From assembly GCA_002224055.1 (NCBI GenBank), contig AZLU01000028.1, positions 173,262 through 237,261 of the forward strand: a stretch of 64,000 bases of DNA, written 5' to 3'. Below are positions 6,328-62,936 of this stretch, piece after piece. The stretch comes from Pezizomycotina sp. ARF18 (lineage: Eukaryota > Ascomycota). A model generated the notes under the pieces. It had not been told where the DNA came from. It saw only the letters and a list, made by a program, of their open reading frames with translations, and did no database searches. Position numbers and translations under genes: made by a program. The stretch's first letter is position 1. The number at the start of each line of letters is the position of its first letter.

Positions 6328-9300
6328 ATGTCTCTCTCACTGAAGTTCAACGAGGCAAAGCTAAAGGCTGATCTCACGAACTACCTCGATTGGAGTACAC
6401 ACATGATTACGTTCCTCAAGTACAACAAAGTCTGGGATGTCACTAGTAAACCGCTCAAGGCTACGGCAGCCGACGCAGAGCCAAGTACTAATGATCAAGA
6501 CAACGACTTGAAGGCGTACACCATCATCGAAGCTCACTGCGAGGCAGAGACTCGACGGCTTATCTACGATCCACCAACAGCAGCGCGAATAAGGCATGGG
6601 ATGCCTTAAGTTCGGCGTACATCGCTGTTGCCGTTATTAGCAAACCTCACATTAGGAAGCAGCTAAGGCAGATTCGACTTGAGAACGAAGTCGATATTCG
6701 AGGATTTATACAGAAGCATCGAGATCTCATCAGAACGTACAATGAGATGTCAGGCTCGATCTCAACAGAGAAGACTGAGGCGGAGACGGCGGAGAAGACG
6801 GAGCTAGGCATGGGCTCGAAGGACAATATAGCCATGGCAGAGGCTGTTGATCTCGTCTGCAGCAACCTCAGTAGCGACTGGGAGACGTTCATCACGAACT
6901 TTCAGCAGATGACGGATTTGATGGCAAAGGAACCGACCCTCGACATGCTCGAGAAGGCGCTGCTCGTCGAAGAGGCAAAGCGCAGAATACGACATACCGG
7001 AGACGTTAGCTCCGAGGATAATAAGGCGCTGTTCGGAAGGAATGGCCGAGGCAAAACCCAAAGGAACGACAAGAAGGTTCGTAAGTTCGAGGGCAAATGC
7101 CACTACTGCGATAAGGTCGGACACAAGAGGGCCGACTGTAGGAAGCGCATAAAGGATGAGAAGGATGGCGGTGATAACGGGGCATCAGGCCTCATGGCAC
7201 GAACCTCAGTGCGAGATACCGGCTCTCAGAGAACGATCCGGTGGTTTCTCGACTCAGGCGCATCTTCTCATATAACGATGGTGAGAGAAGCATTCTCTAC
7301 CTATAAACCCCTCTCGAAGCCACAGAACATCACGATCGGTGATGGAGAAGTACTGCAGGCTATCGGCACTGGCTCAGTATTTGTAAGGCTCAGCAGGGAG
7401 CACGGCGGTAGTCTTATCGAACTTAAGAATACGCTATACGCTCCAAAGATGAAGCATAGCCTGTTCTCGATCTCTCGCGCAGATGAGGCAGGATGCACAA
7501 TGACGATCCGACAAGGCAGATGTACGATAACCAGACCGGGGCTGAGAATTGAAGCCACCGTAAAATGGGACTATGGGAGATCTCAGGTGAGATCGTAACA
7601 TCTGCAAGGAAGAGTTCAGCTCTCGCCACCATGCAAGAAGTGCATGAACGGCTCGGACATGTCGGTGAGGATCATATTAAGCGAATGATCAAGCACGGAA
7701 GCGTCACCGGCATCACTAAAGACGGTAAGGATCCTCAGGGCCATGTCAACTGCGAGGCCTGCGGACTTACCAAATCGAAGGCAACACCAAACCGCGAGAA
7801 ACCCCGTTTAGGCAAGTACAAGCCAATGGAGATAATCTTCTCAGATTTCTGCCAATGGGCGCATGTAAAGAGCCTAGGAGATTGCATAGGGTTTATCACC
7901 TTCCTCGAAGGGAATAGTCGGAAGTCCTGGATCCACTTTGTAAAAGATAAAAAGGCAGAGACGATGCTCTCGTGCTTTAATAGTACTCTCAAGACAGCTG
8001 AACGTCAGTCGAACCTCAAGCTCATTAAGCTACAACACGACGGAGGCAAAGAATATACCTTGATCGACAGACGCTGTAACGAAGTAGGGATCGCAGTTCG
8101 TACCTCAGCTGCATACGCATCTCAACAGAATGGCGCACCTGAGAAGCTCAATCAGATTCTTATCGACAGATCGAAGGCAATGTTGGCCGCATCGGAATTA
8201 CCGCCGCAGCTATGGGCAGAGGCGGTAAATTATTGCAATCTAATCCGCAACTACACGCTATCAAGGCCGCTCGAGGCACTGAAGGATGGCAAACAGACGA
8301 CACCGCAGGGAAGATGGGAAGGCAGAACTCCCGACATCTCGAATTTAGGACATTCGGTGAACCATGTTACGTACACATCGATAGCAAACTCCGGAAGAAG
8401 CCGGATAATACTGCTAAGAAGATGCACTTTGTAGGCCTGGAGGCTTGCAACATCTACCGAGTCTGGGATCCTACTATCCGCAAAGTACTGATCCGCAGAG
8501 ATGTTAGATTCCCGATCGAATCGACCTTCGAAGTACGTGACTTCGCAGAGGATGATGAAGATCCTCTCGAGTACGTTGAAACGGCAACGGCGCCTGATTA
8601 CGATCAAAACTCAACTTCCGATCGTCAATCAGATATCCACGAGACGATTACGCTGGAACAGCCCGAGGATGAGAGCGAAGATCTCGATGACGCTAGCCTA
8701 CAGCTGAGATCCGAGGATGCTCGCTCTCGCAGAGGAAGTCACGTAGATACTATGAGACAGATCTACGACGATCAACCAAAGATGACAGGCGCATTCCCGG
8801 AATCGCCGAAGATGAGATCTAGTAGTCGAACTACGAAGATACCCCACAGGCCAGGATACGTCAGTAAAGATCCAACGGCTATGCGCCTTAGAGAGAAGGC
8901 CCATAAAGGATTAATGGCATACATCGATGAACCAGAGCCACTTACCTACGAAGAGGCTATGAGCTCTGCGAACTGCAAAGGATGGCGTGCATCGATGGAT
9001 CGAGAACTGTCCTCGATCAAAGAACAAGACGTATGGAAACCTATAGATTCTCGAGATCCTCCCGGAAGACAACATCGTCGACAGCAAATGGGTGTTCAAG
9101 TATAAGCGCGATACCACCGGTCGGATTACGATGCTTAAGTCGAGACTAGTTGCTCGAGGCTTTACACAGAAGCAAGGGATCGATTACGACGAGACATACG
9201 CACCGGTAGCTAAGATGTCAACAGTAAGGCTATTCTTCGCATTAGTAGCCTGGCTCGATCTCGAATGCGAGCAGATGGATGTAATGACGGCCTTCCTCGC

Positions 9301-10503
9301 ACCTAAACTGAAGCAGAGAATCATCGTTAGGCCTCCAGAAGGGAGCGGAATCGATGGATTAGTTCAGTTAATAAAGACTCTGTACGGCCTCAAACAGTCA
9401 CCTCGAGAATGGTACGGAGAACTTACCTCAGTTCTCAAATCACTGAAGTTCGAAGTTTGTCGGCTCGACAATAGCTTGTTCATCAGTAAGGATCGTCAGC
9501 TAATAATAATCATCTACGTCGATGATCTGTTGATAGCTGGATCTAACAAATATGAAGTCGAGATGCTCAAGCGAGATCTCAGTTCACACTTCAAGATGAA
9601 GGATATGGGGCCGGTAGCCTGTTTCTTAGGCATACAGGTAGAACGGACCAGGTCTGGAAATCGACGTCGCCTAGTACTACATCAGTCCGCATACATACGA
9701 TCGCTCCTCAAGAGATTTAGGCTCGAGGATGCTCCCGGGATCAGTACTCCCATGGAAAGGGGAGGCATCCCTCGAACGGAGGATCAGGACACTACACCGG
9801 CAGTACAGTATCGACAGATGGTAGGAAGTTTGATCTACACTCTGTTTACTAGGCCAACCGATGCCTTCGCTATCTCGACATTAGGGCAATACGTCAGCGA
9901 AGCAAACCGAACTCACGAGAAGGCAGCAAGAAGAGTACTGCGACATCAGGGAGGATCCCTCGATCGTGCGCTTACGTACTATGCCCGTGAGACAGAGGAT
10001 GAGATGCTAGATCTGCGCATCCACGTAGACGCCGACTGGGCCGGATGCAAGCTCACTCGCAGATCCACTACCGGCTATGTAGTAACGTTCAATGGAACAG
10101 CCATCTCATACTGTTCGAAGAAGCAACGTACTGTAGCTACTAGCAGTACTGAGGCAGAATATATGGCTGCAGGGGAGGCTTCACGGGAAGCTCTCTGGGT
10201 ACTTCGGATACTAAAGGACATACAGCGAGCTTCAAGTTTGAGGCTCCTAACAGCATCGAGATGTACATGGACAATCAAAGCGCCATCAGTATTACGAAGG
10301 ATCCTAAACACCATAGCAGAACTAAGCACATCGATGTACAACATCACTTTGTGAGGGAACTAGTTCGAGAAGGAACAATCGAGCCTCGATATGTAAGATC
10401 GGAGGACAACATCGCGGATGTACTCACCAAACCGCTCACAAAGATATCTCACGATAGCGCTATGAAGGCCATAGGCATGAGAAGATGGGATGAAGATTAC
10501 TAG
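6328..10503 (+). mobile_element. copia element, gag-pol coding region
   Basis: Parts in order: gag from about 6328; CCHC zinc knuckle (CHYCDKVGHKRADC) near 7100; aspartic protease motif FLDSGASSH near 7245; integrase zinc-finger and catalytic core about 7620-8450; reverse transcriptase about 9090-9650 with YVDDLLIAG near 9520; RNase H about 10015-10450 with DADWAG and ADVLTKPL. The order integrase before reverse transcriptase defines Ty1/copia. The coding region is interrupted about five times. Confidence 0.92.
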
Positions 10504-25855: not shown

Positions 25856-26467
25856 TGTTCGCCTTTTCTGAGGACGTTGGTTGACGTAGACTTGAAGGAT
25901 GATAACGAAGAAGAGGGAGGTCGACGAGAGTTAAAGAGAGCGGATCAAAAAGGATAAGAAGGAAAAGAAATAATGAAGCCTTGAAAGAGGTTTACGGAGT
26001 ATATAGTATGTATCCTCTGAACAGTTTGAACCTTCTTAGAGTATTGATAATATGTATTAAGGCGATAAGAAGATTTTAATTATCCGTGATTATATTTCAC
26101 TGTGTTGGTAGACGATTGGAAAAAAAAAAAAAATAAAAGGCCGAAAAAGAGAAAATAACGATTAAATAACTGGGAAACAATAACAGTAATAATAATAATA
26201 TAATAATGACTTTTTTTTTTTTTTTTTTAATTTTTTGTTGCGCTTATATACTATAAATTTATATGTACCTGACGATCCAGTATTTAAAAGTCCCCTCGGT
26301 CATAAACGACCGTAGGTCAATATCCTTTCTATTTTGAAGGAAGCTAAAAACATGCCCGCGTAAGTCCTAAGGAATACTTATATAACTCCCTTCTCCTACA
26401 TATATACCGTTAGGGCCAAATACTCTTATAACGTCTTAGCACGCTTTAGAACGCGGCGGGGATAATA
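25856..26467. other. intergenic, AT-rich
   Basis: Contains poly-A (about 26119-26133) and poly-T (26212-26228) runs and no gene; it leads into the AT-rich retroelement fossil. Confidence 0.6.
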
Positions 26468-26472
26468 TTTAT
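26468..26472 (+). repeat. target-site duplication, left copy (TTTAT)
   Basis: Repeated exactly at 31527-31531 after the right LTR. Confidence 0.8.
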
Positions 26473-26713
26473 TGTTGGATGTAAGTAGTAAAGGAACATC
26501 AAACGACACGAATACATCGAGAATTGCCCGCAGCGCTATGTATCGACCGACCTCGGCCGAGCTCTGTAATAAACGGCATGTATCGATGCGAGGATATTAA
26601 TATCGTAAAGATTCGTTTTATATAGAATTCCTTTTATATATAAACGTAGGATACTACCCTCGGTAGATAGTTTTATTCTTTATGTAATTAATAATTTTAA
26701 TCTTTATCCTATA
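26473..26713 (+). repeat. RIP-degraded copia, left LTR
   Basis: 241 bp starting TGTTGGATGTAAG and ending CCTATA (CA changed to TA). Pairs with 31286-31526. Confidence 0.88.
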
Positions 26714-29700
26714 TAATAGTAATAACTATATTATAAAAGTAATAGCTATATCCCGCGCTATCTTAAAACGGTAATCTAGATCTTAGATAGTAACGTTATA
26801 AAGCTCGTAATATAGTACGTTCTTAAGAAATAATTCTATCCTTATCTCGCCGCCTATCGCGCTGTCGCGAGGTATTACGAGTATACTCGGCTATAGTAGA
26901 GTAAATAATCCTAATATTACGCCCGCTAACTTAATAGAAGATACCTACTATATAGCGCCGAGTATACCTAAGCTATCTAGTATCGTATAAAAACGATTCG
27001 CTATAATCCTATCCCGCTATTTAAGTAGAGTAGCGACTAGCTACTTTAAAAAAGGCGTATACTTATAGAACTACGTATATCGAAGCTTACCGATATTATC
27101 GTAAATCTAAGACCCTAGATAAGAAGCTTAGTAAAGATAAATAGGTTTATTATAATATAATAATAATACTTATTACTTTCGCGGTAGGAATCGAGTAAAT
27201 TTATTATTTTAACGCCGATAAACGAAGGGTATAGGTCGTTTAGATAGCTCTTAAATCTATAAACTTCGTAAATAACGAGGCGAATTAGTAAATATTAGAA
27301 CTTTAGCTAATAAATATATACTAGAAAGACGACGATATTATATATATATATTAACCGCGTAAAAGAATAATAGAAAAACTAAAGACTCTTAACTTAAAAT
27401 TCTACGATAATTAGCTTATCGAGAATATTTTAAAAGAATTACCTAAGTCGTATAATACCGTATTATTCTCTATTACGTTACTAATAGTAGTAGGAGGCGT
27501 TATAATAATCTTAAGTAAGTAATAAGCTTACTAAGCTAAGAAGAAGTACGTTAGAAAGTATAGAAGCTTATATATAATAAATCTAGCGCTAATATAAGCC
27601 GCGCTAGAAAGAAAAATAAGAGTAATAATAATATAGCCTATATAGTAATAAGAATAAGCGCCGGTAATAAGAATACTAGTAATAATATAATACCGATAGT
27701 AGTAAAGGAAGTAGAACGTATTAAGATAGCGTAGACGCCTTCTAAAAGGAGGTTATAGCCGCGGAAGATTTAGTAGCCGTAGTAGCTAGTAAGGCGCGCC
27801 ACCGCGAAGCGTATTAATATAGGAGTATAGTACTATATATACGGAGAATATAGCTATATATAGTACTACTACCTATAAGCGTTTAATCTTATAATTAACG
27901 CTAGTAATAAAGAAGAATTTTAGACCCGGTTTAATTATAGAGATAGCGCCGACTAATAATATTATTTAGATAACGCTAGAGGAACGAGATAGACTTTTTC
28001 CGCGCCGGCCCGCCGCTAACCGCCGCGCCTAACTATAAAGCTAAAAGGCGCCGCCTTAGCTATAAACTATAAAGAAGATAAAGACTAAATATAAATAGCT
28101 ATAAAATATAAGCGAAATAACGATATTTTAAATAATATTATAAGGCGTACCGTACTAGTTTAAATAACGGTTAGTAGTACGCTAATAATATAAATAATAA
28201 TTATATTATAGGATAATAAAAAGATCTCGTAGAGCCAATATAGCTTAAACTATCTTATCACATATATAGGGGACGATTATATCGTTCTAGCTACTTATAT
28301 CAGAAATATATACTTTAAAGTAAATATTAATAATAAACGCCGAGTTATTATAATAACCGGCGTCTATTATTATAAGGAATTTAGATAAGCTAAGCTACTA
28401 TTAATAGCGTAATTAATTAAATAGGAACTAATATTTAATCTCTTAGATTAAAACGTACTAACGTTTTAATACCGTAAAACGAGTAAAATCACTCTTTAAG
28501 CGCCTAAGTAGAAAAGGATATTCCTAATAGCTATATAGAATAATAACGAACTACTACAAACTAGCTTAATATATAGCGAATAGGCGCTCGTTATAGAATA
28601 GAGTAAATAGTATAGAAATAATATTAGGCCCTTAGCTATTTAAATAAAATCGATCTTTATTATTTATTATAAGATCTAGGTATAACTATTACGAAAGATA
28701 CGTATATTTAACGTCCCTATAAAGTATATATAATAAGTAATATATACCGTTAAACGCCTAAGCGTTAATAACTCGAGAAATTATACCTCTACGTAAGATT
28801 TATATAGATATATAGATAGCGCCCGTAAGTAGTAGAGTTTAAAAAATAATAGTAAATTTAATAATTAGTCGACGATACGACTTAATATAGCTAGGTACTT
28901 TATATAGTAATAAGAGAATAACTAATAAATAATAGATAAATAGATTAAGCGTAAATTACTAAATACGCCGCGAAACGCTCTAACTCGAGAGACCGCGATT
29001 AGTACCATATACTCTATTCTCGTTATTTATTATAATAGTAGCGGTAAGTATAGCGATTTAAACGATAATAAATTTAAAAATATACTAGCCTTATATAGTA
29101 TTAAGTAATAACGATACGCGCTAAACAATTATAATTAAAACGGAGTAAAACATTTTCTACTAACTATTATAATAAAGTACGCGCGGCGCTTTACGATATA
29201 AACCTACTACTTTATCTATAAAAAAAGCTACCCGATACGCCTACAAACTAAGAAATATATTACCTATAAAGGCGCTTTACGGTAAAACGCCCTATAAAGC
29301 GTATTAAGGCTATAAACTAAATATTAATAAACTATACCCATTTAATACTAATATATAGATAATAGAGATTATTATCCTATTAATAAACTACTATAAGAGT
29401 ATAGAAAAAAATATATAGAATTTAAAATAGCGGTAAAATAGTTAGAGTATATAATCTAACTTAGTATAAAATACTATAAACCTCTTACTTTATAATAGCC
29501 GCTAGATTAAATCTACTACGATAAATTAAGTACGATAATTCTATACTCGCCGCTTAAGTAGCTCTTTAATTTCTACTAACGCGGTAGCCCTCGCTATATA
29601 TTAGAATATTAAAGATCTAGATACCGTTACCTACGCTTAAGTAATATAATCGCCGAAGAAAGTAAAATAATAGGTAATAATAAAGAAAAAACTACTCTCG

Positions 29701-31285
29701 CTAGAAAAGTATGGCGTATAAAAATTAATTAAATAAATATAAGAAGAATTAAATAGTAGCGTCTACTACCGCTAAAGTAAGTACTTTACTATAAATAAAA
29801 TATTTAAAATAAGATCGTTCGCTATAAGATAAGACTAGTAGTTCTAGGCTATCTATAGGATTAATAAAATAACGATATATATTTACCGGTTATTAAATTC
29901 TCTATAGCCCGCGCTATTCTAGCGGTAGCCGCTATATTAGATCTTAAGGTACGATATAGAGATATTACCTCTATATTTCTTAGAGGGATCTAACGCCTAA
30001 TTAGTAAGTAAATATACTCGCGCCTAAAGGGTATATACTAGTATAGAACGATTTCTAATAAACTAACGTATAAAGGCGTAGTATACTCCGCCTTACTAAA
30101 TTATATATAGCCTACGTATCTCGCTATTATATAGAATAGTAAACTTTATAAAATACTAACTAATATAGGATTATATTAATTACCCTATAACACGAGTATA
30201 TACTATAGCTTAAGAGATATCGATACGGGAGGTATCGGTATATATATTCTCATATTTATTAATAACTTACTTATTATTATATATAATAAACTAGCTAATA
30301 AGATTAAAAAAAGCTACTTAACGGCTTAATATTAAGTAATTTAATAACGCGGTATACTTCTTAGAAGCTTAAATTAAAAGGAATCGCCATAAAAGGATAA
30401 TATACTTATCGTAGAAGACGTATATTAATAGATTACTTTAACGTTATATATATAAAACTACATAATTACGGTAATACTAATAGTTTAATATCCCGCGCTA
30501 CGCGTCCCGAGGAGAATTAAATCGTTAGACTAGAGGACTATTATAGTAAACTTAAAAGAACTTAGTATCCGACGGTTTAGACGCGTCTAGAACTAGCCTT
30601 CGCTTAGTTAGAATTAGCTACCTTTACTACCTACCTAGAAGACTTATAATATACTACGATAGCGGTTACTACGCTATCTATAGGGAACGCGTAAATACGG
30701 CCTACACTTCGGCCCGAGTAATACCGATAGAAAGATATAGCCTTAAGGATATATAGATAGCGACTTCGCTTAAGCCGAAGATCGCCGCTTAGTTAGTAGC
30801 TATACCTTTATAATATATAGAAAAGTAGTATCGTTTATATCTCGTAAATAAACTACCGTTACTATTTAATAACGGAGGTAGAATATATAGTACTTAGCGC
30901 CGCGATTCGAGAGGTAGTATAGCTTAGAAGGATACTCCGGTTAAGTCTACTTATAAACTAGTAGATCGGGGCTACTAATAACGAGAAAATAATTTCCGTT
31001 AAATTAAAAATTAATAATATAAGCGCCTACTACCTAGCTATAAATACGGCTTATAACGTTAATAAACGAACTAAGTATATCGATATTAAATATTATTTAT
31101 TAGGGAGAAAATTAAAGATTATAAGATCGCGCTAGCGCGCGTCGTATCGGCCGATAACGTCGCCGATATATTTACTAAACCGCTAGCTCTACTGGCATTT
31201 ATTAAACTAAGGTAGGCGCTAGGAGTACGCCCTATCCTAGATTATAAAAAATAGGGAGGCCTCGGCTATAGCGGGTAAGGGAGAC

Positions 31286-31526
31286 TATTAAATATAAGTA
31301 GTAAAGGAATATTAAACGATATAAATATATTGAGAATTACCGTAGCGCTATATATCGACCGACCTCGGCCGAGCTCTGTAATGAACGGTATACATCGATA
31401 CGAGAATATTAATATCGTGAAGATTCGTTTTATATAGAATTCCTTTTATATATAAACGGCAGGATACTGCCCTCGGTAGATAGTTTTGTTCTTTATGCAA
31501 TTGACAATTTTGATCTTCATCCTACA
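31286..31526 (+). repeat. RIP-degraded copia, right LTR
   Basis: 241 bp starting TATTAAATATAAG, which is the left start with G-to-A changes, and ending CCTACA. A CTCGGCCGAGCTC core is kept in both LTRs. Confidence 0.88.
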
Positions 31527-31527
31527 T

Positions 31528-31532
<5 letters not shown>

Positions 31533-31560
<28 letters not shown>
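31533..31560. repeat. (AT)n microsatellite
   Basis: About fourteen AT units directly after the element. Confidence 0.85.
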
Positions 31561-31565
<5 letters not shown>

Positions 31566-32642
31566 GTGCGGTAGCGATATAATACATATAAGTTTTTCCT
31601 AGTTATAATAATAGTGCGAGCGCTATAAAGAGATGGAATTTATAGTTGAGGTATTCGTTAAGGAGCTGTGGTATAATTTTAATAAAAATAATATTATTTA
31701 GATATTCCAAATACGGTGGTAGTTCGTAAAGATCACGATACTCTTTGATTAGTTTCGCCACAGATTGAAAGGGCGCAAAATAGCGGCGTGCATTTTTTTT
31801 TTCAACGGTTCATATCTTCTGTAAGCAATACTGTAAACGCTTCCCCTAAAATTTCAAGCCCTTAGGAAAAATAAATAATATGAATATCCAGTCGCGACGG
31901 ACGGAAATACTAGGATTCTGGAAAGATTCTCCTGATGTAACTATGGAAAGAAGGACCCGAAAGGGCTGCGGCTCCCATTTTACAATTCTTGTACGGAAAT
32001 CGAGTAGACCGAGGCATAAACAAACAACCAGGGAAAAGTTTCGCACCCGCAACACTTGCGTTAAGAATGTCTTTATGTATATATTAATTATCCCAAGGCT
32101 TCACGTATAAAGTAAATCTATAGCATTAACCGGGGGGGGGGGGGGATAATTTGGAGGTTCTGGGGGTATAACAAGCTTAGTCCATCGTGATTAATCTCGA
32201 GACGTTTTATTCTTATGATCGGGCTTTCTTGAATCATACGCCGAATATTAGCCTAAACGAAGAAGCGGTAATCGCTTTCACAGCGAACGGCTGCCTAGGC
32301 TTAAAGACGCTTGTCTCCCTCTATACGCCATTACTTTAGGACTTCGATTTATTAGCCTAAACACCTCCCAAACTAGAAGTAGTAAGGCTGTAAAGCTTTC
32401 CGTTCGCATCGTACATTATCGGTCCATAGCAATATGAACACTCAGACAATAAAACACACAAGGCATCAATAACTTATAGTGCGGCAGCCTACCGGGGGTC
32501 CACGCTTAGTCCTGTAGGAGCAAGCTCTTATGATTTAGTAGCGGCTGCTCCCTATCAAGTGATAGGTTTACTGCAATGTGGACGCCGTTTTTTTTCTCCC
32601 CTCTCCATCGTCGGAATTTCGCGCAAGTGGCTGTTCTGAGCA
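31561..32642. other. intergenic, nothing supported
   Basis: About 1.1 kb. Opposed short frames around 31846-32110 have no motif. Includes a G14 run at 32132-32145. Confidence 0.5.
32132..32145. repeat. poly-G run (G14)
   Basis: Fourteen G in a row, unusual in this AT-leaning spacer; length should be regarded as uncertain. Confidence 0.75.
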
Positions 32643-43976: not shown

Positions 43977-44623
43977 ATCAGGGTTCGATACCTTAGGAGT
44001 TTTATGGAGTTTATCTCTCAATCTTGTAATCACGGTGCGATGTATTTTCCGAAAGATAATGTTCAAAAAGAAACGTGTAATGGAGGCTAAAGTAATTAAA
44101 AGAGACATCACGAAGCATCAGTGAACGAAGCAACTTATAGAATTAGACAGCAGGTCTAAAAAGGAGTGCGTGAGTAATATGAAAACCAGGTGAAGGCGAC
44201 ACTAGCAGCTTCGTCTTTAAGCCATAAGCGCCTACCGGCAGTCAGTTCTTACGAGGGAGTGCGGATTCCTCCTTCTCACACCGTGCCGCTTGGTGACATG
44301 GACATCCGCAAACGTAGCCTCCGAGGCGTAAAATGGCAGGAGATGGAGCCCATTCCGCTGTTGAGCGAAGAACAAATCTCTAAATCAGAATACCGGCGGA
44401 ACACCTTAGTAAACTTGACTTTGTATTAAGACGCCTAATTTTCGCCGTCTTCCATACATGACAGAGCTTGAGTGATTCTCCAGCGTCCAGTGGGATGATT
44501 GCGATTACCCAGTGCTATTCTTTATTCCACAAGCGCAGGAGCGGCAGTTGTCCCTTTGCACATACCGACCCTAATATCCCTCCTTTCCTCCACTTTTATA
44601 TCACAAACAGATAGGGTTCCCGC
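43977..44623. other. spacer, nothing firm
   Basis: A plus frame at 44190-44429 (RIPPSHTVPLGDMDIRKRSL) looks faintly protein-like but has no start context, partner or family. Confidence 0.45.
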
Positions 44624-45540
44624 CTAGCCCTTCGACTGTCTTCTTAAACTCCTCCAAGAACGAACCCCAAAAAGCAGGCTCCCCTTGGCGGTCCGACAAT
44701 CCCAACTCCGAAACCTCCCGCCGACGGTACTAACCCGAACGCGCAAGTCGCTTATCTGCTGTAAAAGCTCCATAGGTTCTTTGGTGCTGCCGTTTCGCTC
44801 TGTGAGGTATTTCTCCCAATTCACATATGTTTTGGGATACTGCGAGAATTCGATGTTGATTGTTTGCTCGACCCGACCGTCCACTCCGACAGCTGTGCTA
44901 CGCGGATGAGATTGTCCGTTTTCAATGTCGGGCTTTTCAAATTCGCGAGATGATTATTCTCATTCCATGATGTTGAATATAAAGGATCATGTTCATTGTC
45001 CTGAGGAATGGCCATTGTGTACAGCTACAGTCTCGTTGTCGGGTTCTGCGCAGGTCCACGCCACGATCTCTATGCTACTGAGCAGCCGACCGATTGTATT
45101 GATGAAAGAAGTTGCTCCGAGGAAGAACTCCAGAGCGTTCTCCCGAATAGTATTTTCGAGGTCGGGCTCGGTTTGAGGAGCGTTTGGGCATAAGACATGG
45201 GAGTCGAAGACTATAGTCGTGAAGCATGCCTTCCAAAGCTCGTTCTTGGATGTTTTGAAAGATTCCATTCGGGATAAGCCGTCGGCAATAGATCTCGTTA
45301 CATTGAATTTGAGACCACGGCGGCGGCTGAGTATCGAGGTGAACACGTGGTTTAGTCGAGCGCATGTTTGACGAAGGCTCAGGATTGACTTCAAACCGGA
45401 CCGTCCTCATCCTCAAGGTCAACGTGTATTAGGATCTAGTAAACTCTCATTTAGTACCGCTCGTAGTGAACGCGAGAACATGAAGTTGGATATTGGCTAA
45501 CCTCGATGTAAACCTCGAGAGGAAGGCTGGCAAACATCAT
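44624..45540 (-). CDS. F-box-type family member 1
   Basis: From ATG 45540: MMFASLPLEVYIE, then an intron starting GTTAGC, then VDLEDEDGPV and SILSLRQTCARLNHVFTSIL. This completes an F-box. The body has the family boxes: NELWKACFTTIVFDSHVL and EFFLGATSFINTIGRLLSSI. Downstream frames carry NIEFSQYPKTYVNWEKYLTE and MELLQQISDLRVRVSTVGG, ending near 44624. Several length changes interrupt it (for example a missing T near 45395). F-box proteins recruit targets to SCF ubiquitin ligases; target unknown. Relatives lie at 46484, 56413, 58018, 59622 and 61402. Confidence 0.62.
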
Positions 45541-46483
45541 TTGGGCATATTACGCGGATGAACATTCTTTGTGAGCAAAACTTCCCCCAGCAAATAATCT
45601 GGCAGCCCCAGGTAATTTATATTCTGAGAAAAGTTTTGGATACAATACAGCCAGCGAACTCCAATTGCGTGTTATACATGCGTCGTATTTTCAAATACAC
45701 CAAATAAAACGTGTTTCTTGATATCAAACTTGCAGATAACGTAGCGTTGACAGATTGCGGGATCAACCATGTATCTTCGCATTTTGCATCTGGCTTCCAC
45801 CAGAGCGGCCTAGAACCTCTAGTCCTGAGCTAGGAAGGTCAGCCGTGGATCTCGCACACCTTGCAGCGGAATACCAACAAGAGTAAACGCCGTCGAATAC
45901 TGTCGGGGTGTAGTGTAGTCACCATTAAAAGCAACACTGTATAATGGATAGTATAATGTAGTAATAGTAAATAGAAGCAAAAACGAGTGGTATTCGACTA
46001 ACTATCCTCCTCCTTTGGAGGAGGAAAGCTAGCTTCTTTATATACACAACTTTTTAGCAGGGCTAGAGGGCATCGCGTGCGTTCTGCTAGGCCGCGCCTT
46101 CCCGCGCGCCCTTGACGCCAAAACACGTGCTCTCTTTCTGCACGACGACAATACGAAGAGGGAACGCCACTTGTTGTTTGTCTCGCGTGGGACTTTACTG
46201 TTATCATCGTGCTCCCATCAACACCCTGCCGTGCTTGGGCAGATTGCCGCATACGATTCAATCTCGTCGAGATAACTGTTTCGATATTCACAGGGAACCG
46301 AAAATGCATGGTATGAAACATTGCAAGGACCGGTCATAAAGAAGCTGAGATTAGAACGGCGACCCCACAGAGGAAGCTTATGTGACAGATGCCCGGTACC
46401 TACCTTATTTAAATTACCTTCCCTGGCAATACATACGATCCAAGTCTTTACTTGACTCTAAGATACGGTTTCTTTTAGTCCGT
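45541..46483. other. intergenic, nothing supported
   Basis: About 940 bp between two minus-strand family members; short frames at 45998-46339 lack motifs. Confidence 0.5.
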
Positions 46484-47532
46484 CTAGACACGATTTTCAG
46501 CTGATGGAAATCGAATTGTATCCAGCCAGGAATTAGAACGCATCAGGATATCCCAATGCTTGGAGTAATGCTCCACCCTGTCTTGCACTTTCGCATCCGT
46601 TGATGTTCGGTAAACGACCAGTTTTAAAATCATGACCTGGGTTTCTCCAGCACTTAAACGCTTTAACAAACCTATTGAACTCGCCTTCGGACGTCCGGAG
46701 CGGGTGATGATCCATTACGGAGGTATTGTGAATCTCCAGCTCAGTAATTCTGGAGAAACAATGGAATCGGCGCCCGGTCCGCCCATGCCCACTGCTTCCA
46801 TAGGTATTTGCTCTCTGTGATACATTTTGGATACGTAGGCTCCGTTCTCAAGCGAAAAGAATTTCGGTATCGTCTCGCCGCTCTGTGGCCATAATTTCAG
46901 CCCCGCGTCGTCAGGGCAATAATACGTGAAGTGCTTTAGAAAGTGACCCGAACAGATATCGATCTTTAAACGTCGGATATTTCGCAAGTAATCGCTTCCG
47001 GATTAGTGGAGTGGAGGAATATTATGGAGAGGGCCGGAAGAAGGCGTCTTGGATGACAACGCCCCAATACCAATTTCCCTGCCGGCCGACCGTTGAAAAG
47101 ATCTCTAGCGCTGTAAGCTGCGGCCGATCACCTGCACGAACGGCAACGCTGCAAGTAAGAAATCAAGAAAGGAGTACAGAATACAGTTCGGTGTTGAACT
47201 TGTTTTCGGGGCAAATTGCATCGGCGTTGACCGTCAGCGTCGAGAAGCAAGACTTCCATAGCGAAGCCCGGATAACTGGAAATCTTCCATCCGGGAAAAG
47301 GGGTCTTAAAGGGAATGTCCGAGGTGAAACTTTCGTTTTCCTTTAGCAATGAGTATACTAAGTTGTTGAGGCGACAACATGCACTTCGCAAATTTAGCAG
47401 GTCTTCCGGTTTTTCGGCGTCGAAATGCTCTATAAATACCTCGCGGGCAGACTTAGGAAGGAAGTCATGATTGTATACTGCTGCGAATGTCGTCGTCTCT
47501 GAGTGGAACAGCAGAGGTATACGCCACGCCAT
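46484..47532 (-). CDS. F-box-type family member 2 (divergent)
   Basis: From ATG 47532: MAWRIPLLFHSETTTFAAVY, DFLPKSAREVFIEHFDAEKP, LLNLRSACCRLNNLVYSLL (F-box-like, apparently without the intron of its relatives). Family boxes follow in shifting frames: AMEVLLLDADG, SFLDFLLAALPFVQVIG, QDAFFR, RRLKIDICSGHFLKHFTYYC. The C-terminal part (PQSGETIPKFFSLENGAYVS, VGMGGPGADSIVSPELLSWR, then SKHWDILMRSNSWLDTIRFP) has no counterpart in the other members. At least four frame changes are needed, so it is decayed or badly read. Confidence 0.52.
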
Positions 47533-54378: not shown

Positions 54379-55717
54379 CTATCGCGGGCGATGAGATTCT
54401 CCCTCCATCCTGTAATCGCTTCCAATATTAGGTGCATAACGCCCTTTTAACGTCACGAGAACATCGCCGATGTAATTATCCGCCTCAATTCCCCTTTCAT
54501 AAGCAACCTGCCAATTGCCCAGGATGTCCGACGACCAGGGAATCCGCGAGATATATTTTCGCAAGCGCGGGCAGGAAACCGCCCCGGTTCTTATTAAACA
54601 GCTGGTCCAGATCATCCAGCTCCTCCGGGGCCCTGTCGAAATTCGCTTCTGCTCTCATCAGAAAGATCCTCCCAAAGTCCAACCTCCCTGCTACGGCTCC
54701 ACGTACGCACGCTTCAAGTATCGCATTATCCTCCTGCGCAGTCATGCAGTACGTTCCAGTACCGTTCGTAAGCAGGTCCACGTACTTCGAAAACGAATCT
54801 CCCAACAGCGCGCCGTGGAAGAAAACGTCGGACTTCGTTACGTCGCACTTTACGACCGCCGGCGGGCTTCGTGCGACGGCGGGGAAACCCAATGAGCAGT
54901 ATAATTCGCTCGGTACGCGATCGCGGTATCGGAATTGTTGAGGTTTGCCTTCGAAGCTATTCGCGCTGCTCGGTCACGGAGGTTGAGGTTGAGCTCGAAG
55001 GCTTCGGTGCCGTATGGAAACCATGGATATTCGTTGGGTATTTCGCGCCGAGGGGTATGTAGCCAGTGTCGAATGTCGTGGGACTTCTCTGGTGTCGAAC
55101 TCGTATGCGAGGCCTACCTGGACGGCGTAGAGGGCAAACGCGACGGAACCGATAGTGGATTCGTAGGGGTTCACGCCTGGGATATTGTCAACACCATATC
55201 CGCTTGATGGGAAGGACTGAACCAACCTGCGACGCCAGCGATGATGAAATAAGTCAACTTGAAATCGAACAGGTCGTTGAATATGAGCGCAGCCATCGTC
55301 GCCGCGGCGTTAGTCTCTGTAATAAGAGATCAGAATATGCTCAAAATTCTCGAAAAACGGAGGAAGATAAGGGTCCCTTACCAGCTTCATCCGTTACGAC
55401 CTGGAGTACTTCCATCGTGGGCCAATACTTCAGATTGGAGAATAACGGCGAAAGACCTGGCACGCTAATATTCCGGTAATCTGGTCCGAGTTGATTCCAT
55501 GCTTCAAATCCGGGCGTAAACTTGCTCGGTCGGAATGTTAGAAAGTGGAACGAGACAAAACAATTGCGAATATCGGAATGTATACCAAACTAATGATAAG
55601 GACTTGGGGAGATCTTCTGGCACTGTATCTTCATGAAGCCGAAGAAGTGCAATCCCCGGGCAGCAGTGAAGCCACCACTGCGAGGGAAAGATGGGGTAGG
55701 ATACCGATCAACAACAT
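54379..55717 (-). CDS. purine nucleoside permease (NUP family)
   Basis: From ATG 55717 a signal-like segment (MLLIGILPHLSLAVVASLLP) leads into SPQVLIISL; introns at 55521-55585, 55317-55381 and 55177-55226 join FTPGFEAWNQLGPDYRNISV, PGLSPLFSNLKYWPTMEVLQ, TNAAATMAALIFNDLFDFKL, TYFIIAGVAG, VNPYESTIGSVAFALYAVQV. Then come PWFPYGTEAFELNLNLRD, VKCDVTKSDVFFHGALLGDS, FSKYVDLLTNGTGTYCMTAQ and EDNAILEACVRGAVAGRLDF. This is the fungal NUP family, described as purine nucleoside transporters and related in fold to nucleoside phosphorylases. Two or three single-base slips lie between 54880 and 55090 and one near 54530. Near full length. Confidence 0.86.
55177..55226 (-). other. 50-bp intron in the NUP gene
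   Basis: Minus-strand GTTGGT ... ATCCCAG; splicing joins AG to VNPYESTIGS, the conserved NUP motif. Confidence 0.7.
55317..55381 (-). other. 65-bp intron in the NUP gene
   Basis: Minus-strand GTAAGG ... TTACAG, joining VVTDEA to ETNAAATMAAL. Confidence 0.78.
55521..55585 (-). other. 65-bp intron in the NUP gene
   Basis: Minus-strand GTATAC, CTAAC branch and GCAAG acceptor, joining VLIISL to FTPGFEAW. Confidence 0.72.
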
Positions 55718-56412
55718 TGTGTTAGCTGGGGAGATCGGATGAGACACCCTGATCTTGGTCTTACATAGCTATGATCACGAATTATGCGCTTCTGGAAAAT
55801 TCTCACAACGTGTCTGGTAGCAGCAAAATAATGGAAATAATAATCCTATTCGAAATTTAGGCTAAGCGAGGCGTATGAACTCAACAACGAATCATGTCCA
55901 AGACACGTAATGAATAGATTCAAGTAGCAGCAGATTAGGATTTAACCTTGAGCTGAAGAACTTCATCTTTCGTTGAAGGGAGTTAGGTGCAGGACCCGGT
56001 GGTGTGCAGGACCCGGTGGTCTCATGAGGGATTGATATTAAGCCCTGCTTGAGTTTATAATATAGCATTATTTCTCGTCTCCTCCACTATGAACCTGAAT
56101 CCGAACGCTGGTTACCGTAGTAAAACTGAAGATCATATTGCAAACTTGAATAAGTCAAGACTGAGCTCTTTTAAATACCAGATTAGAGAATCAAGGTAAT
56201 ATGTCATAATACAATCCTCTACATGGGATTCTCAAGCTATTCATAGCGTCATCATGATAGTATTCAACATCATTGGGTTACGGAAACAATAGTCCTTTCT
56301 TCGGGGAGGCATAGATTGCTCGATGATATGGAGAGCGTCTTCGGTAATTATAAATCTAAGCCATCGACGTTGATTCAAAGTCACTTCATTGAGGCGGCGG
56401 CGAGGTAAGAGC
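55718..56412. other. intergenic
   Basis: About 695 bp, no gene; contains a perfect 17-bp tandem duplication at 55987-56020. Confidence 0.55.
55987..56020. repeat. exact 17-bp tandem duplication
   Basis: GTGCAGGACCCGGTGGT at 55987-56003 and 56004-56020. Confidence 0.95.
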
Positions 56413-57604
56413 TTATGGCGGCAAGACCGGGGACCATTGAGGAGAAACTAGTGAACGCGCTGAGACCGGAGAATGGGGTTGGGCGACGGGGAATGTACGG
56501 CGGTGAAACAGGTCCTCCAGCACCCTGAGATTCCGGAGGTCTAGGACTATACATGGCAACGTAGGACTGATAGGGGGTGGTGTTGGCGCGTAAGGTGGAG
56601 GAGACGGCGGCGACCAGAACCGAGGACCATCTGAGCCTCCGTGTCCGAGCAGACCAGAAGATCCAATATGTAGTGGCGAAAAAACGGGGTCCCGAGGATA
56701 GTTGAGCTGCTCTGGCCAATTCGAATATGCATTCACCATATATCAAGTCGAGAAGATGTTTTCACGCTTAGAAAGCACTCGAGGTCCGCGTCGAATTGGT
56801 TATCGGGAAGTCCATTCCATATTACCAATTCTTGTATTTGTTTGAAGAGAGGTGTTTCCGTCCGAGGTAAGGTCGGTTGCCATTCTTTAAATTGAGAGGC
56901 GCTCTTGTGGAAGTATTCATATCGGCTATAACGAGCTGGACTATCCGTTGATGGTATCCCTTGAAGGGAGGGGTCCGTTAGGTACCGAGTAAATCTGTCT
57001 AGGTATTTGCCGCACTAGATATCGACCCGAAATGTTGTGATGTTTGAAAGATAATTTTTTTACCCGTTCGTCGAGTGGAGAAATAAGAACGCTAGGGCTC
57101 GCAGGTACCGATCCTGCCTTGAAAGAAAAGCTCTTTATCTCGGTCAAGCCTGGAAGGGTTGCAGAGAACCTCTATGACCTTGAGCTGAGGCCCGATATTC
57201 TAGATGAAAGGTATCGCAGCGTCGAGAAATTTCATAGCATGTCCCGCTATTTTATGCTCGTTATCCCAAGGACGGTCGTCCGGACGAAAGCAATTTACAT
57301 CAAACGAGACGTGAAAACTAGATGCTCTCTACGCTTTAGGGGTACAGGCTGGGGAGGTCCGCATGTTTGATAATGTCGCTTTTAGCTTCAACTCGACCGC
57401 AGTATTGCTCCTCAAACTCAACACAGCCGGAACAGTTTCGCTTAGATCATGACACACTCGACGGAGTGGTAACAAGAAATGAAGCCCATCTTGTTTGAGA
57501 TACGAGAAAATCTTGATAAATGTATAACAATTGTGAAATATAGCAATTGCAATTCTTACCTCGATATAAAGCTCGGTTGGCAGACCGAGCAGTGCTACGG
57601 CCAT
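56413..57604 (-). CDS. F-box-type family member 3, Pro/Ser-Pro-rich tail
   Basis: From ATG 57604: MAVALLGLPTELYIE, a 48-bp intron (57512-57559), then IFSYLKQDGLHFLLPLRRVC, HDLSETVPAVLSL. This is a complete F-box. The body is badly eroded; AMKFLDAAIPFI, NIGPQLKVIEVL near 57170-57240 matches the family FLL-A--FIE--GPQL box. The tail (56413-56740) reads NWPEQLNYPRDPVFSPLHIG, RFWSPPSPPPYAPTPPPISP, YSPRPP, VSPPYIPRRPTP and ends VSPQWSPVLPP, in two alternating frames. This Ser-Pro-rich tail recalls the CTD-like tail of member 6. Many breaks in the middle. Confidence 0.6.
57512..57559 (-). other. 48-bp intron within the F-box of member 3
   Basis: Minus-strand GTAAGA ... ATCAAG. Being a multiple of three it does not change the downstream frame, but it falls at the same site as in the other members. 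Confidence 0.7.
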
Positions 57605-58017: not shown

Positions 58018-59152
58018 ATGGGTATCCTGGATCTTCCCAGCGAGATCTTTGTCGAGGTTAGTTCCCTGAGCGATGAAATTATTGAGTTACCTTTCGAATA
58101 CACCACTATTATGAATCTGGCGAGAGGTTTTCTAGATCTTCGACTACCTGAACCCGGGCGGGATAATAGAGATGACAAGTGCGGCTTACAATTCTTTCTC
58201 GCTGTTCGGCGGACAAGCAAACGAGTGAATGATGAGGTCTGTAAATTTCTTCGAGGTCAGGTTAGAATTCGCATCGGCGGAGACACTGTCGCTGGCTTAG
58301 CCGGAATGAGGGAGTTCCTAGACTCCGGCTGAGCGGCGTGGAAATCCTCTTTCACTACGATCGCTTTTGATGCCGATATCCTACATGCGAAGCCGGTGAG
58401 AGAACGATTCGACCATCGTACTGTACACATGAGGATTACAGGCACCCGCTCGGACTTGAGTCGGTGGGAGAAAGCGCCGGCGCTCACAGCCTCGAGTTTT
58501 TGCTTGCCTCCATAAAATTTATAGAGACACTAGGGCTACAGATTACTTGCCTTAACCTAGTCTCGCGAGAGGAACATTTCTAAGACGAGGAAATGCAGGG
58601 CTCCTACTATCAGCAAGATCAGTTTTTCCGATCTATAGCTATCCTGCTACTTCACGCGACGCGGAATAAGATGCTACCGAAGGTCAAGACGTTACGTATG
58701 GCCATCAACTCGGGGCACTCGCTGGACCGCCTTATTTTGAACACTGTCGATGAGGAGACTGCCTCTATCATAGCAGAGGGCAAGATCGGGATAGTATTCC
58801 ACATTACTTCAAGCAGGAAGATTTCGATTTTGATGAGCGTATGTTGGTTCCTGGCGGGAATGACAAGGAGGGGCCAACTGAGGAGTCTGAGTACCCGGCG
58901 CCTATGCCATTCTTCGAGCAGATTCGCTCACCCTAAATCTATACTGTTAAATCTGATTTCCATGATATCTGGGAGTGGAAATTCACGGATCTTGTAAAAC
59001 GAGGAAGGGGAGACGATCTACATGTGTGCCTATCGCAAGAGAGATTTCCTATATGTGGAGTGAATGAGGTCCCGAAAGGACCCAACTTCTCGTTCAGGGA
59101 ATATTTTACGCATATTGAGGAATTATTTCCGGTAGAATACGATTCTGACTAG
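58018..59152 (+). pseudogene. F-box-type family member 4, acidic tail
   Basis: ATG 58018: MGILDLPSEIFVE, an intron starting GTTAGT (58057 to about 58126), then FFLAVRRTSKRVNDEVCKFL, RGQVRIRIGGDTVAGLAG, an in-frame stop, AAWKSSFTTIAFDADILHA, HSLEFLLASIKFIETLGLQI, another stop, YYQQDQFFRSIAILLLHATR, KMLPKVKTLRMAINSGHSLD, then in a further frame IPHYFKQEDFDFDERMLVPG, a third in-frame stop near 58935, FTDLVKRGRGDDLHVCLSQE, NFSFREYFTHIEELFPVEYD. It lacks the Cys cluster of member 5. Three stops plus about three frame slips mean real decay is likely. Confidence 0.68.
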
Positions 59153-59621: not shown

Positions 59622-60852
59622 ATGATGGATTTTCCGGTCGAGATATTCTTCGAGGTTTGTTTCATTATCAGCGATGGTACGATTCTATAGCTAATATAAA
59701 TGGCGAAACTGCTATTAGATCCTAAGTCAATTCGACCTCAGCCACCCAGATCTCCAAGCACTTTTGGCACTCCGTCAAACCTCCAAGCGTCTTCACGATG
59801 TTATTTGTATTTTTCTTCGAGGGCGGATCAGGCTGCGCGTCGGCGGGTCTATCGTCAAGGCCCTTGCTACCATGCGAGACTTCCAGAAGTCCGATTCAGA
59901 GATGTGGAAATCTACTTTCACTACGGTCGCCTTTGATGCATACGTCCTAGATACTGAACGCAAAACAAGAGCAATCCGCACTTTTACGATCGTGAGCCAA
60001 ACGAATCAGCGGTCGGCGAGAACGGCTTTAACTTCCTGCTTGAGGGCATAACATTCGTCGAAGCCGTGGGCCCGCAGCTCACCTGCGTCGATATCATATC
60101 CCCCGTACAATACGGCGGATTCTTCCGGCAGGACAGGTTCTTCAGGTCCATGTCGTTATTGCTACTACATGCGAATCACGATGGAAAAAACTTCATGCCA
60201 AAGGTGAAGACGCTGCGAATGCTCATAGAGACCGGCCACTTCCTCGACACGTTTACGCATTATACGGTAGACGAAAAAACTCGCATTGCCATGGAGAAGC
60301 GCAAGGCTGTCGGCTGGAGGAGCGTACCGTCTTACTTCACCATGGATATGAGCCGGTTCGTGTCCTGGAAAGCATCCCAAGATTGGCCGAATTGGCCCAA
60401 CAGGGGCGTCTGGCCTGAAGCCATGCCGTTCCTAAAACAGATTAAGTCCTTGCAGATCGTCAATAAGGACTATAACCACGACACCCAGCTGAGAAATTTT
60501 ATCGACTTTGTCGATCGCGGGAGAGGTATTCACGTTTCGCTATCCACGATAGTTTTCCGCGCCACCTTGCGGATAAGGTTCCCGAGAAGGATAGATTCTC
60601 GCTTGAATGGAAAACATGTTACGCTCAGAACGGCGTCAAGTGTGACTATTGTCAGGCGCGGGCGAAGGGCCAGACTACTTCAGGTTCGAGGTGTAGTTGT
60701 AGTTACAGGGACACCAACGTGTCATATTTGAACTCGCCACCGCCGAAGAGAAAGTAAGTCTTAGTTGTGATTATTTTTTGAGTTCTATCTTGCTCTTGTT
60801 ACTGAGATCTAACATCGATCGCAGGGACAACCATGATCGGTACAGATACTAA
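59622..60852 (+). CDS. F-box-type family member 5, Cys cluster, best preserved
   Basis: ATG 59622: MMDFPVEIFFE, intron 59655-59718, then ILSQFDLSHPDLQALLALRQ, TSKRLHDVICIFLRG (F-box and following helix), EMWKSTFTTVAFDAYVLDTE, NFLLEGITFVEAVGPQLTCV, RQDRFFRSMSLLLLHANHD, MPKVKTLRMLIETGHFLDTF, SVPSYFTMDMSRFVSWKA, MPFLKQIKSLQIVNKDYNHD, NFIDFVDRGRGIH, a cysteine cluster (TCYAQNGVKCDYCQAR, then RCSCSYRD) that could bind zinc, and SPPPKRK. A final intron (60754-60824) leads to a short last exon ending DNHDRYRY. Only two single-base slips (about 60010 and 60605). Tandem with member 4, same strand. Confidence 0.76.
59655..59718 (+). other. 64-bp intron within the F-box of member 5
   Basis: GTTTGT donor, AGCTAATA branch, CTATTAG acceptor; joins FPVEIFFE to ILSQFDL. 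Confidence 0.82.
60754..60824 (+). other. 71-bp terminal intron of member 5
   Basis: GTAAGT donor, TCTAACA branch, GATCGCAG acceptor; reading through would instead stop at 60755. Confidence 0.6.
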
Positions 60853-61401: not shown

Positions 61402-62936
61402 TCAGAACATACGGCGATGGGCTAAAGCTGACTGAAGTGTAGAAGGGGAAGTCGGAGAATATCGGGGAGAAGTCGGAGAGTACTGAGGGGAGCTTACGAC
61501 ATACCGGCGAGACAACCTCGTTGGAACGAACGTCGGTGAAGAAGGGGTGTAATTAGGCGACGTGGGTGCTGGCAGAGGAGTGGAAGGCGTATAACGAGGT
61601 GATATCGGAGAGAATCGAGGATACGAAGGAGATATCGCATCGCCCCATCCGGAATTAAAACTAGAAACATGGCACTCCCCGCAATAAGGATCATGTGCGC
61701 CGGAATAAGAATTGTGTGCAGGGAAAGTAGCGATCCAGGAGGAGCGACCCCACGGTGTAATCGGGCTATAAACCGCGACGTCGGGTAATAGCCATGCTGT
61801 GGCCTGAAAAATGCAGGCACAGGAAGAATTGTAAAGCCAGCCGGTTCTCTTTTAGGCGCAGGAGGTTCGGCGTAACCTGCAGGGTCGCAGGCCCAGAATG
61901 AACCATAGCAGCCGGGCCGACCGCAATTGACGACGGGATCTCTCCAGTTGGTCCATTCTCCACAGGTGCGGCTTAGGCACTGTGCGTCGGGATTTACAGT
62001 TTCTACGGAGCACACGAAAGCATCTACTTGACTTTCGAGGTACTGATCGTCTGGCCGACGGACCCTAAGGCTTCTAATTTGCCTAAACAAAGGTATCAGT
62101 CCAAGCGGTGGCCAGTCGTAGGCGCCTCTCCAGGTTTCAAAACCAATGCTGTCCAATTTGAAATACGATGGAGTCGGCCACCCGTAAACATTACGATAGC
62201 TCATCGCCATGGCGATGCTTGGATCAACGACAGGTTTGCTGAGGCGGTCTAGATACTGGATATTACCGGCCCAGACCTCTAGCGACAGCGTGTCCACGTT
62301 CACAAGATAGTTCTTCTTAGGTTGCGAGGCATGTAATAAGAGCATTGCAATAGCTCAGTAGAACCTATCGTGGTCGCTCCTGATACTTGGTGAATCGTAA
62401 GCGCTAGGGCGAATCTCCAGACGGCTTATGTGGGGCCAATTCTTTCGATGAAGTCCATCGCATCAAGTAAGAAATCGAGGTAGTTGCGACCGGGGTCGCT
62501 CTTTGGTGGGAGCGTCAGTTCGCCCGTGCACTCTTGTCGCTCCTCCATCACGTTACTCTTGAATACGACGGTTGCAAAGCACGAGGACCAGGCCGCAAAG
62601 TAGGGGGTGGATTTCGCGGTAGTAAACGATCGCATGCGGGAGATGCCATCAGCGAATTCGTCGTAGACAACGAATTTGAGTTTACCGCGAAGAAGATACG
62701 TAACGACATTCCTTATGGCGTCGCACGTCTGGCGGAAACGGAGGACAGTCTCGAGATCGCGTTTGTTCTCGAGATCAAATTCGCTCAGTATCTAAGGGTA
62801 GAAAATTCTCACGTTAACACACATTGCTGTTCCATAGTGCCATATAGCCGCACCGGCGGTGTATCTCCATAGGCAATATTGATGACAATACCTCAGCAAA
62901 CAGCTCACAAGGGAGCGCCAGAATTCCGGCCTTCAT
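61402..62936 (-). CDS. F-box-type family member 6 with RNA polymerase II CTD-like tail
   Basis: From ATG 62936: MKAGILALPCELFAE, intron 62792-62891, ILSEFDLENKRDLETVLRFR, QTCDAIRNVVTYLLRG, WSSCFATVVFKSNVMEE, YLDFLLDAMDFIERIGP, RFY then an in-frame stop, AIAMLLLHASQPKKNYLVNV, RLSKPVVDPSIAMAMSYRNV, TPSYFKLDSIGFETWRGAY, IPLFRQIRSLRVRRPDDQYL, and a Cys cluster (CLSRTCGEWTNWRDPVVNCG, CYGSFWACDP). After a frame change near 61795 the tail (to 61402) reads YSPITPWGRSSW, then SPSYPRFSPISPRYTPSTP, APTSPNYTPSSPTF, SSPQYSPTSPRYSPTSPS. The heptads fit the Pol II CTD consensus Y-S-P-T-S-P-S. Three breaks in all. Confidence 0.76.
62792..62891 (-). other. 100-bp intron within the F-box of member 6
   Basis: Minus-strand GTATTG ... 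ACCCTTAG; joins PCELFAE to ILSEFDL, the same position as in members 1, 3, 4 and 5. Confidence 0.78.

Follow-up and report, generated by a model that had tools for sequence, protein, structure and literature searches.

Stretches that imitate the CTD of RNA polymerase II are known from proteins outside the polymerase. In yeast, each Nrd1-type mimic (NIM) is one short motif whose CTD-like part is preceded by negatively charged residues (PMC7110113), and the CTD mimics of Trf4, Mpp6 and Sen1 bind a CID (PMC7110113, PMC4186968). CTD analogues and PIE-1 are described as binding cyclin T1 and inhibiting elongation (PMC3745420), which offers a model for a tail that competes with the CTD. C. elegans PIE-1, a CTD analogue acting on P-TEFb, resembles the case described here in being a non-polymerase protein. 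No paper on an F-box protein with CTD heptads was found among titles and the beginnings of abstracts in the open literature, a collection that most subscription papers lie outside.

We examined such an array in a window of 64,000 nucleotides (the whole stretch of Pezizomycotina sp. ARF18 DNA analysed). It belongs to the sixth member (m6) of a gene family with F-box-like N-termini and lies on the minus strand, in an open frame of 149 codons plus stop at 61402-61851. A sequence-only reading had named several heptad motifs in this tail; all are present, in this open frame. Its count was too low, as nine heptads stand in register at 61441-61635 and a lone YSPITPW, which begins 135 nt before the array does, lies apart at 61750-61770. 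The array reads ISPSYPR, FSPISPR, YTPSTPL, PAPTSPN, YTPSSPT, FVPTRLS, a slip of two residues (RR), then YVVSSPQ, YSPTSPR and YSPTSPS, with unit starts at 61635, 61614, 61593, 61572, 61551, 61530, 61503, 61482 and 61461. The last two form an exact tandem pair at 61441-61482 (61482-61462 and 61461-61441). Pro3 is found in 8/9 units and Pro6 likewise, place 1 is aromatic in 7/9, and Ser or Thr occupies place 2 in 6/9, place 4 in 8/9 and place 5 in 7/9. In the PIE-1 motif Ala stands in for Ser; the m6 units instead mostly have Ser or Thr at place 2 and at place 5. Asp and Glu are absent from the whole array (61635-61441). The NIMs of Trf4, Mpp6 and Sen1 are short CTD-like stretches in disordered regions of proteins other than the polymerase (PMC7110113, PMC4186968), a setting that the tail would share. 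In contrast to them it is repeated and free of Asp and Glu, and because the negative charges are absent it is not a mimic of the Nrd1 type.

Pfam and a sequence search of the PDB both show the m6 tail to be CTD-like, as first proposed. The Rpb1 repeat model PF05001 matches it above cut-off (27.9 vs 20.3 bits, in 5 stretches), and the tail has the tandem heptads of that family, Tyr1-Ser/Thr2-Pro3-Thr/Ser4-Ser/Thr5-Pro6 with place 7 free. The search against PDB sequences gave 24 rows, which up to E = 1 are all RPB1 or CTD peptides except for one aminotransferase (0.95); the best match to RPB1 CTDs has an E-value of 4.4e-28, inflated by the repeats. The tail had no match at E 1 among phage records, and nothing at E 1 was found in NCBIfam for the tail and two bodies of the family. 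Unlike an RPB1 CTD, the array has nine units with only two exact ones, lies behind an F-box-family body that is read in a different frame, and is not joined to an RPB1 core. An F-box gene might have captured the 3′ end of an RPB1 gene. In favour are the exact wording YSPTSPS, the matches to RPB1 CTDs and, in four rows for budding-yeast RPB1, a best stretch that extends back across the linker (query 24-137). However, the 53 residues ahead of the array (61770-61612), when searched alone, match no PDB RPB1 up to E = 10, so that the likeness once drawn between the YSPITPW segment and the linker of a real CTD is not borne out; moreover the array is mostly degenerate, yet it retains the two prolines in nearly every unit, and the event must be old if the tail of another family member, m3 (below), is homologous. 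From these comparisons we consider capture unlikely, with a slim chance of being correct.

The m6 heptads are real and their regularity is beyond chance. We devised a heptad score for the present analysis and compared the tail with shuffles that keep the composition of its 69 residues: none of 20,000 reached the observed score for two, three, four or five heptads. The tandem exact pair did not occur in 200,000 shuffles, while a single YSPTSP occurred in 500. Proline pairs tell the same: 12 are spaced by seven residues, a number reached by 0/20,000 shuffles, and there are none at spacings 1, 6, 8 and 13. In a six-frame scan of the whole window the m6 tail ranks first for two to five heptads.

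For a rough base rate we searched prokaryotes and viruses, which stand in for fungi only as a loose yardstick, with a double-heptad DNA pattern in which places 2 and 5 may also be Thr. It was found in four contigs among 2.9 million viral contigs and in three contigs among 84,980 prokaryote genomes. Three of the matching contigs (L001, L002 and L006) carry ahead of the array what, to judge by its motifs, is RPB1-like sequence. In two others (L003 and L004) the long YSPTSPx arrays are of similar style but have hardly anything, or nothing, ahead of them, and the remaining two have repeats of YSPTTPS (Streptomyces) and YTPTTPR (Treponema bin). The three prokaryote contigs thus comprise two Thr variants and one apparent RPB1 contaminant, and an exact pair outside RPB1 is very rare in the prokaryote collection, again a rough yardstick for fungi. 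The apparent contaminant, by its motifs an RPB1-like CTD (L006:3569-3678), lies at the end of a Gemmatimonadaceae-binned contig and is probably of eukaryote or giant-virus origin. The Treponema-binned contig has its run of YTPTTPR-like heptads at L007:7134-7213, a convergent near-CTD repeat.

Fungal disordered tails are often rich in Ser, Thr and Pro. The m6 tail could be one of these, never a CTD mimic, that took on its heptad period through repeat growth and served as a set of phosphorylation sites or a plain linker; a tail rich in Ser, Thr, Pro and Tyr could have such a period with no link to CTD readers. The convergent arrays in the Streptomyces frame and the Treponema-binned contig demonstrate that near-heptad repeats do arise, family members m4 and m5 are without such a tail, and the last two heptads are identical at 15/18 nt across their six shared codons, so the final unit may be a duplication. 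On the other side, composition alone is insufficient for the register, because 0/20,000 shuffles reach the score, and the rarity of exact pairs without RPB1 among the prokaryote genomes also argues against repeat growth, within the limits of that yardstick. The silent sites bear on the same question. Between ten units (the nine array heptads and the lone YSPITPW) pS is 0.78 and pN 0.45, a ratio of 0.57, and the out-of-register comparison gives 0.80-0.94; the units were chosen by likeness, which itself lowers pN, and the out-of-register control corrects for this only in part. Silent sites thus differ between units about as much as random ones, unlike those of young repeats, while the amino-acid pattern is retained, and for this reason the entire array looks old and shaped by selection on the protein. 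All three differences within the exact pair are silent; that pair could be a later duplication, or just two conserved units. On balance we regard repeat growth as doubtful, although it deserves to be taken seriously.

Ahead of the tail, m6 resembles the other members of its F-box family. Its first exon (62892-62936, minus strand) holds the start of the F-box (LPCELFAE); a predicted GT..AG intron of 100 nt (62792-62891), placed by eye, would split the F-box, and the second exon (62429-62791) would supply the remainder and the part that follows. The body proper was traced by tblastn at 61770-62354, in a frame other than that of the tail, and aligns with m5 at 32% identity (126 columns, E 1.4e-16) and with m3 at 31% (121 columns, E 5.4e-11). 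The intron site in the F-box is apparently common to m3, m4, m5 and m6, as judged by eye. The assignment to F-box-type proteins made in the sequence-only reading is supported for the family through m5, whose spliced N-terminus passes the PF00646 cut-off (22.7 vs 20.5 bits); the joined N-terminus of m6 falls below the same cut-off (17.3 bits, E 0.0045), a longer version of 99 aa has no match at E 0.01, and the N-terminus of m3 is below that of PF12937 (22.9 vs 24.3 bits). The m6 gene is like F-box proteins (PF00646/PF12937) in its F-box-like N-terminal stretch, apparently split by one intron, and unlike them in its C-terminal heptad tail. A three-row alignment gave AlphaFold no usable fold for the m6 body (mean pLDDT 35.5), and no relative of that body was matched among the viral contigs. 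Prolines near the end of the m6 body were also examined for a period, which was rejected with 2,090/20,000 shuffles as good.

As assembled, m6 has no continuous coding sequence from F-box to tail. There are two frame changes, one at the end of the second exon near 62430 and one from body to tail, and an in-frame TGA at 62355-62357, where m3, m4 and m5 have Arg (by eye). The heptads do not lie in the frame of the preceding body, and the frame change ahead of the tail, already mentioned in the sequence-only reading, is one break among three; an intact SCF adaptor is not supported by the gene as assembled. From 61851 on, the body and tail frames overlap as open frames. A codon-usage scan for the frame switch gave no clear signal, the body and tail frame stretches being near or under zero, and RNA structure around the switch lends no support to a programmed shift (z -0.47).

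It is conceivable that m6 is intact in the organism and that the frame changes are assembly errors or are bridged by introns. The break near 62430 is beside a run of four C and the tail frame starts near a run of five T. For the step from body to tail, 16 GT..AG introns of 40-200 nt can be drawn, but none of the 16 has a CTRAY branch site. Five of 40-250 nt would bridge 62430-62355, and with it both the upstream break and the TGA; three of these have the branch site, but all five cut into 62509-62432, a stretch with a tblastn alignment to m5. Bridging introns are thus possible on paper and unconvincing. Furthermore, in-frame stops lie within the tblastn-aligned stretches of m6 (one), m3 (two) and m4 (two), and these are not made by indel errors alone. 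An intact gene is therefore improbable in our estimate. Decay is the simplest reading of the breaks, some of which could be assembly errors, and the m6 copy is most likely now a pseudogene.

Among the members read, none besides m6 has intact heptads, as previously noted, and m3 has degenerate ones. It lies at 56381-57604 on the minus strand and consists of an F-box-like start, a body with stops and a heptad-like tail; its in-frame stops at 57062 and 57017 are within tblastn-aligned stretches, and 57202 and 57331 are also in the stop list. The heptad-like units occupy 56489-56613, with starts at 56613, 56592 and 56571 and then at 56551, 56530 and 56509. They read SPPSPPP YAPTPPP ISPTLPC and, 20 nt on in another frame, YSPRPPE SQGAGGP VSPPYIP; as we read it, the seven-residue phase continues over the frame change (20 instead of 21 nt). 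Two further heptad-like units, HSPVSAR and WSPVLPP, lie ahead of the stop. The first stretch has a three-heptad score reached in 40/20,000 shuffles and a two-heptad score reached in 279/20,000; for the second the numbers are 2,690/20,000 and 666/20,000, and the scan there favours a phase other than the one listed. Proline pairs at spacing 7 are matched by 211/20,000 shuffles, and spacings 3, 4 and 7 are equal in number (9 each). The pN/pS of the m3 units is 0.74, and the m3 tail matches neither PF05001 nor the PDB. In the scan of the window it is the second-best locus for three heptads, and is outscored by other loci for two, four and five. When m3 and m6 are aligned, 26/2,000 shuffles do as well for the tail protein, 1,116/2,000 for the part before the heptads and 100/300 for the DNA; the end of the m6 body against the m3 tail is equalled by 154/2,000. 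These comparisons are suggestive only, and an ancestral tail common to m3 and m6 is possible to likely.

Of the plus-strand members, m4 (58018-59152) has in-frame stops at 58330 and 58581, and m5 (59622-60757) has the F-box that scores above cut-off when spliced; no heptad tail is visible in either. More remnants of the F-box family were found on the minus strand at 44300-47500, with a tblastn E-value of 4.9e-17 at 45403-45089 and weaker matches near 47 kb (8e-5 and 0.04). These remnants are absent from the 14 best rows of the heptad scan.

The window holds other elements. A Copia-type retroelement (gag, integrase and RVT_2) spans four overlapping open frames at 6495-10354, and a purine nucleoside permease (NUP) gene or remnant is on the minus strand at 54500-55589, divided between two frames and interrupted by an in-frame stop, though introns may be present. 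An AT-rich block at 26001-32000 (31% GC) has a strong RIP-like dinucleotide bias, with a composite index of +1.26, which would fit a filamentous ascomycete. The index of the F-box cluster is -0.26, and RIP was rejected as the cause of its decay.

We favour, tentatively and at slightly less than an even chance, the explanation that m6 is what remains of an F-box gene of fungal type, and that the encoded protein carried at its end a short CTD-like tail with about nine heptads. The tail, presumably disordered, would once have been translated jointly with the F-box body, and selection at the protein level would have kept it, from an ancestor common to m3 if the m3 tail is homologous. It may then have acted as a CTD mimic. 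Such mimicry is plausible, with the CID-binding CTD mimics on the non-polymerase proteins Trf4, Mpp6 and Sen1 as precedent. The F-box half would join Skp1-Cul1, CTD kinases or other proline-directed kinases would phosphorylate the Ser/Thr-Pro sites of the tail, and through the phosphorylated tail the ligase might gain, as substrates or as partners, the proteins that read the CTD (WW or CID proteins, CTD kinases or phosphatases); alternatively, the tail might compete with RPB1 for CTD readers. Docking of the tail on CTD-binding proteins is, as in the sequence-only reading, something that we infer.

The bolder form of this proposal is a fungal F-box family with a true multi-heptad CTD mimic that ties a ubiquitin ligase to CTD readers and writers, or competes for them. 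On this view m6 and m3 are copies in decay, and members that are still intact exist in other parts of the genome or in sister species. We consider this bolder form rather unlikely as a whole. The yeast CTD mimics in the sources cited above are single short motifs; if the proposal is true, an F-box protein bearing a whole array would connect protein breakdown with transcription in a new way, and would provide a natural test of which heptad features are sufficient for recognition off the polymerase. Even as a relic, m6 points to a family where the intact form may exist.
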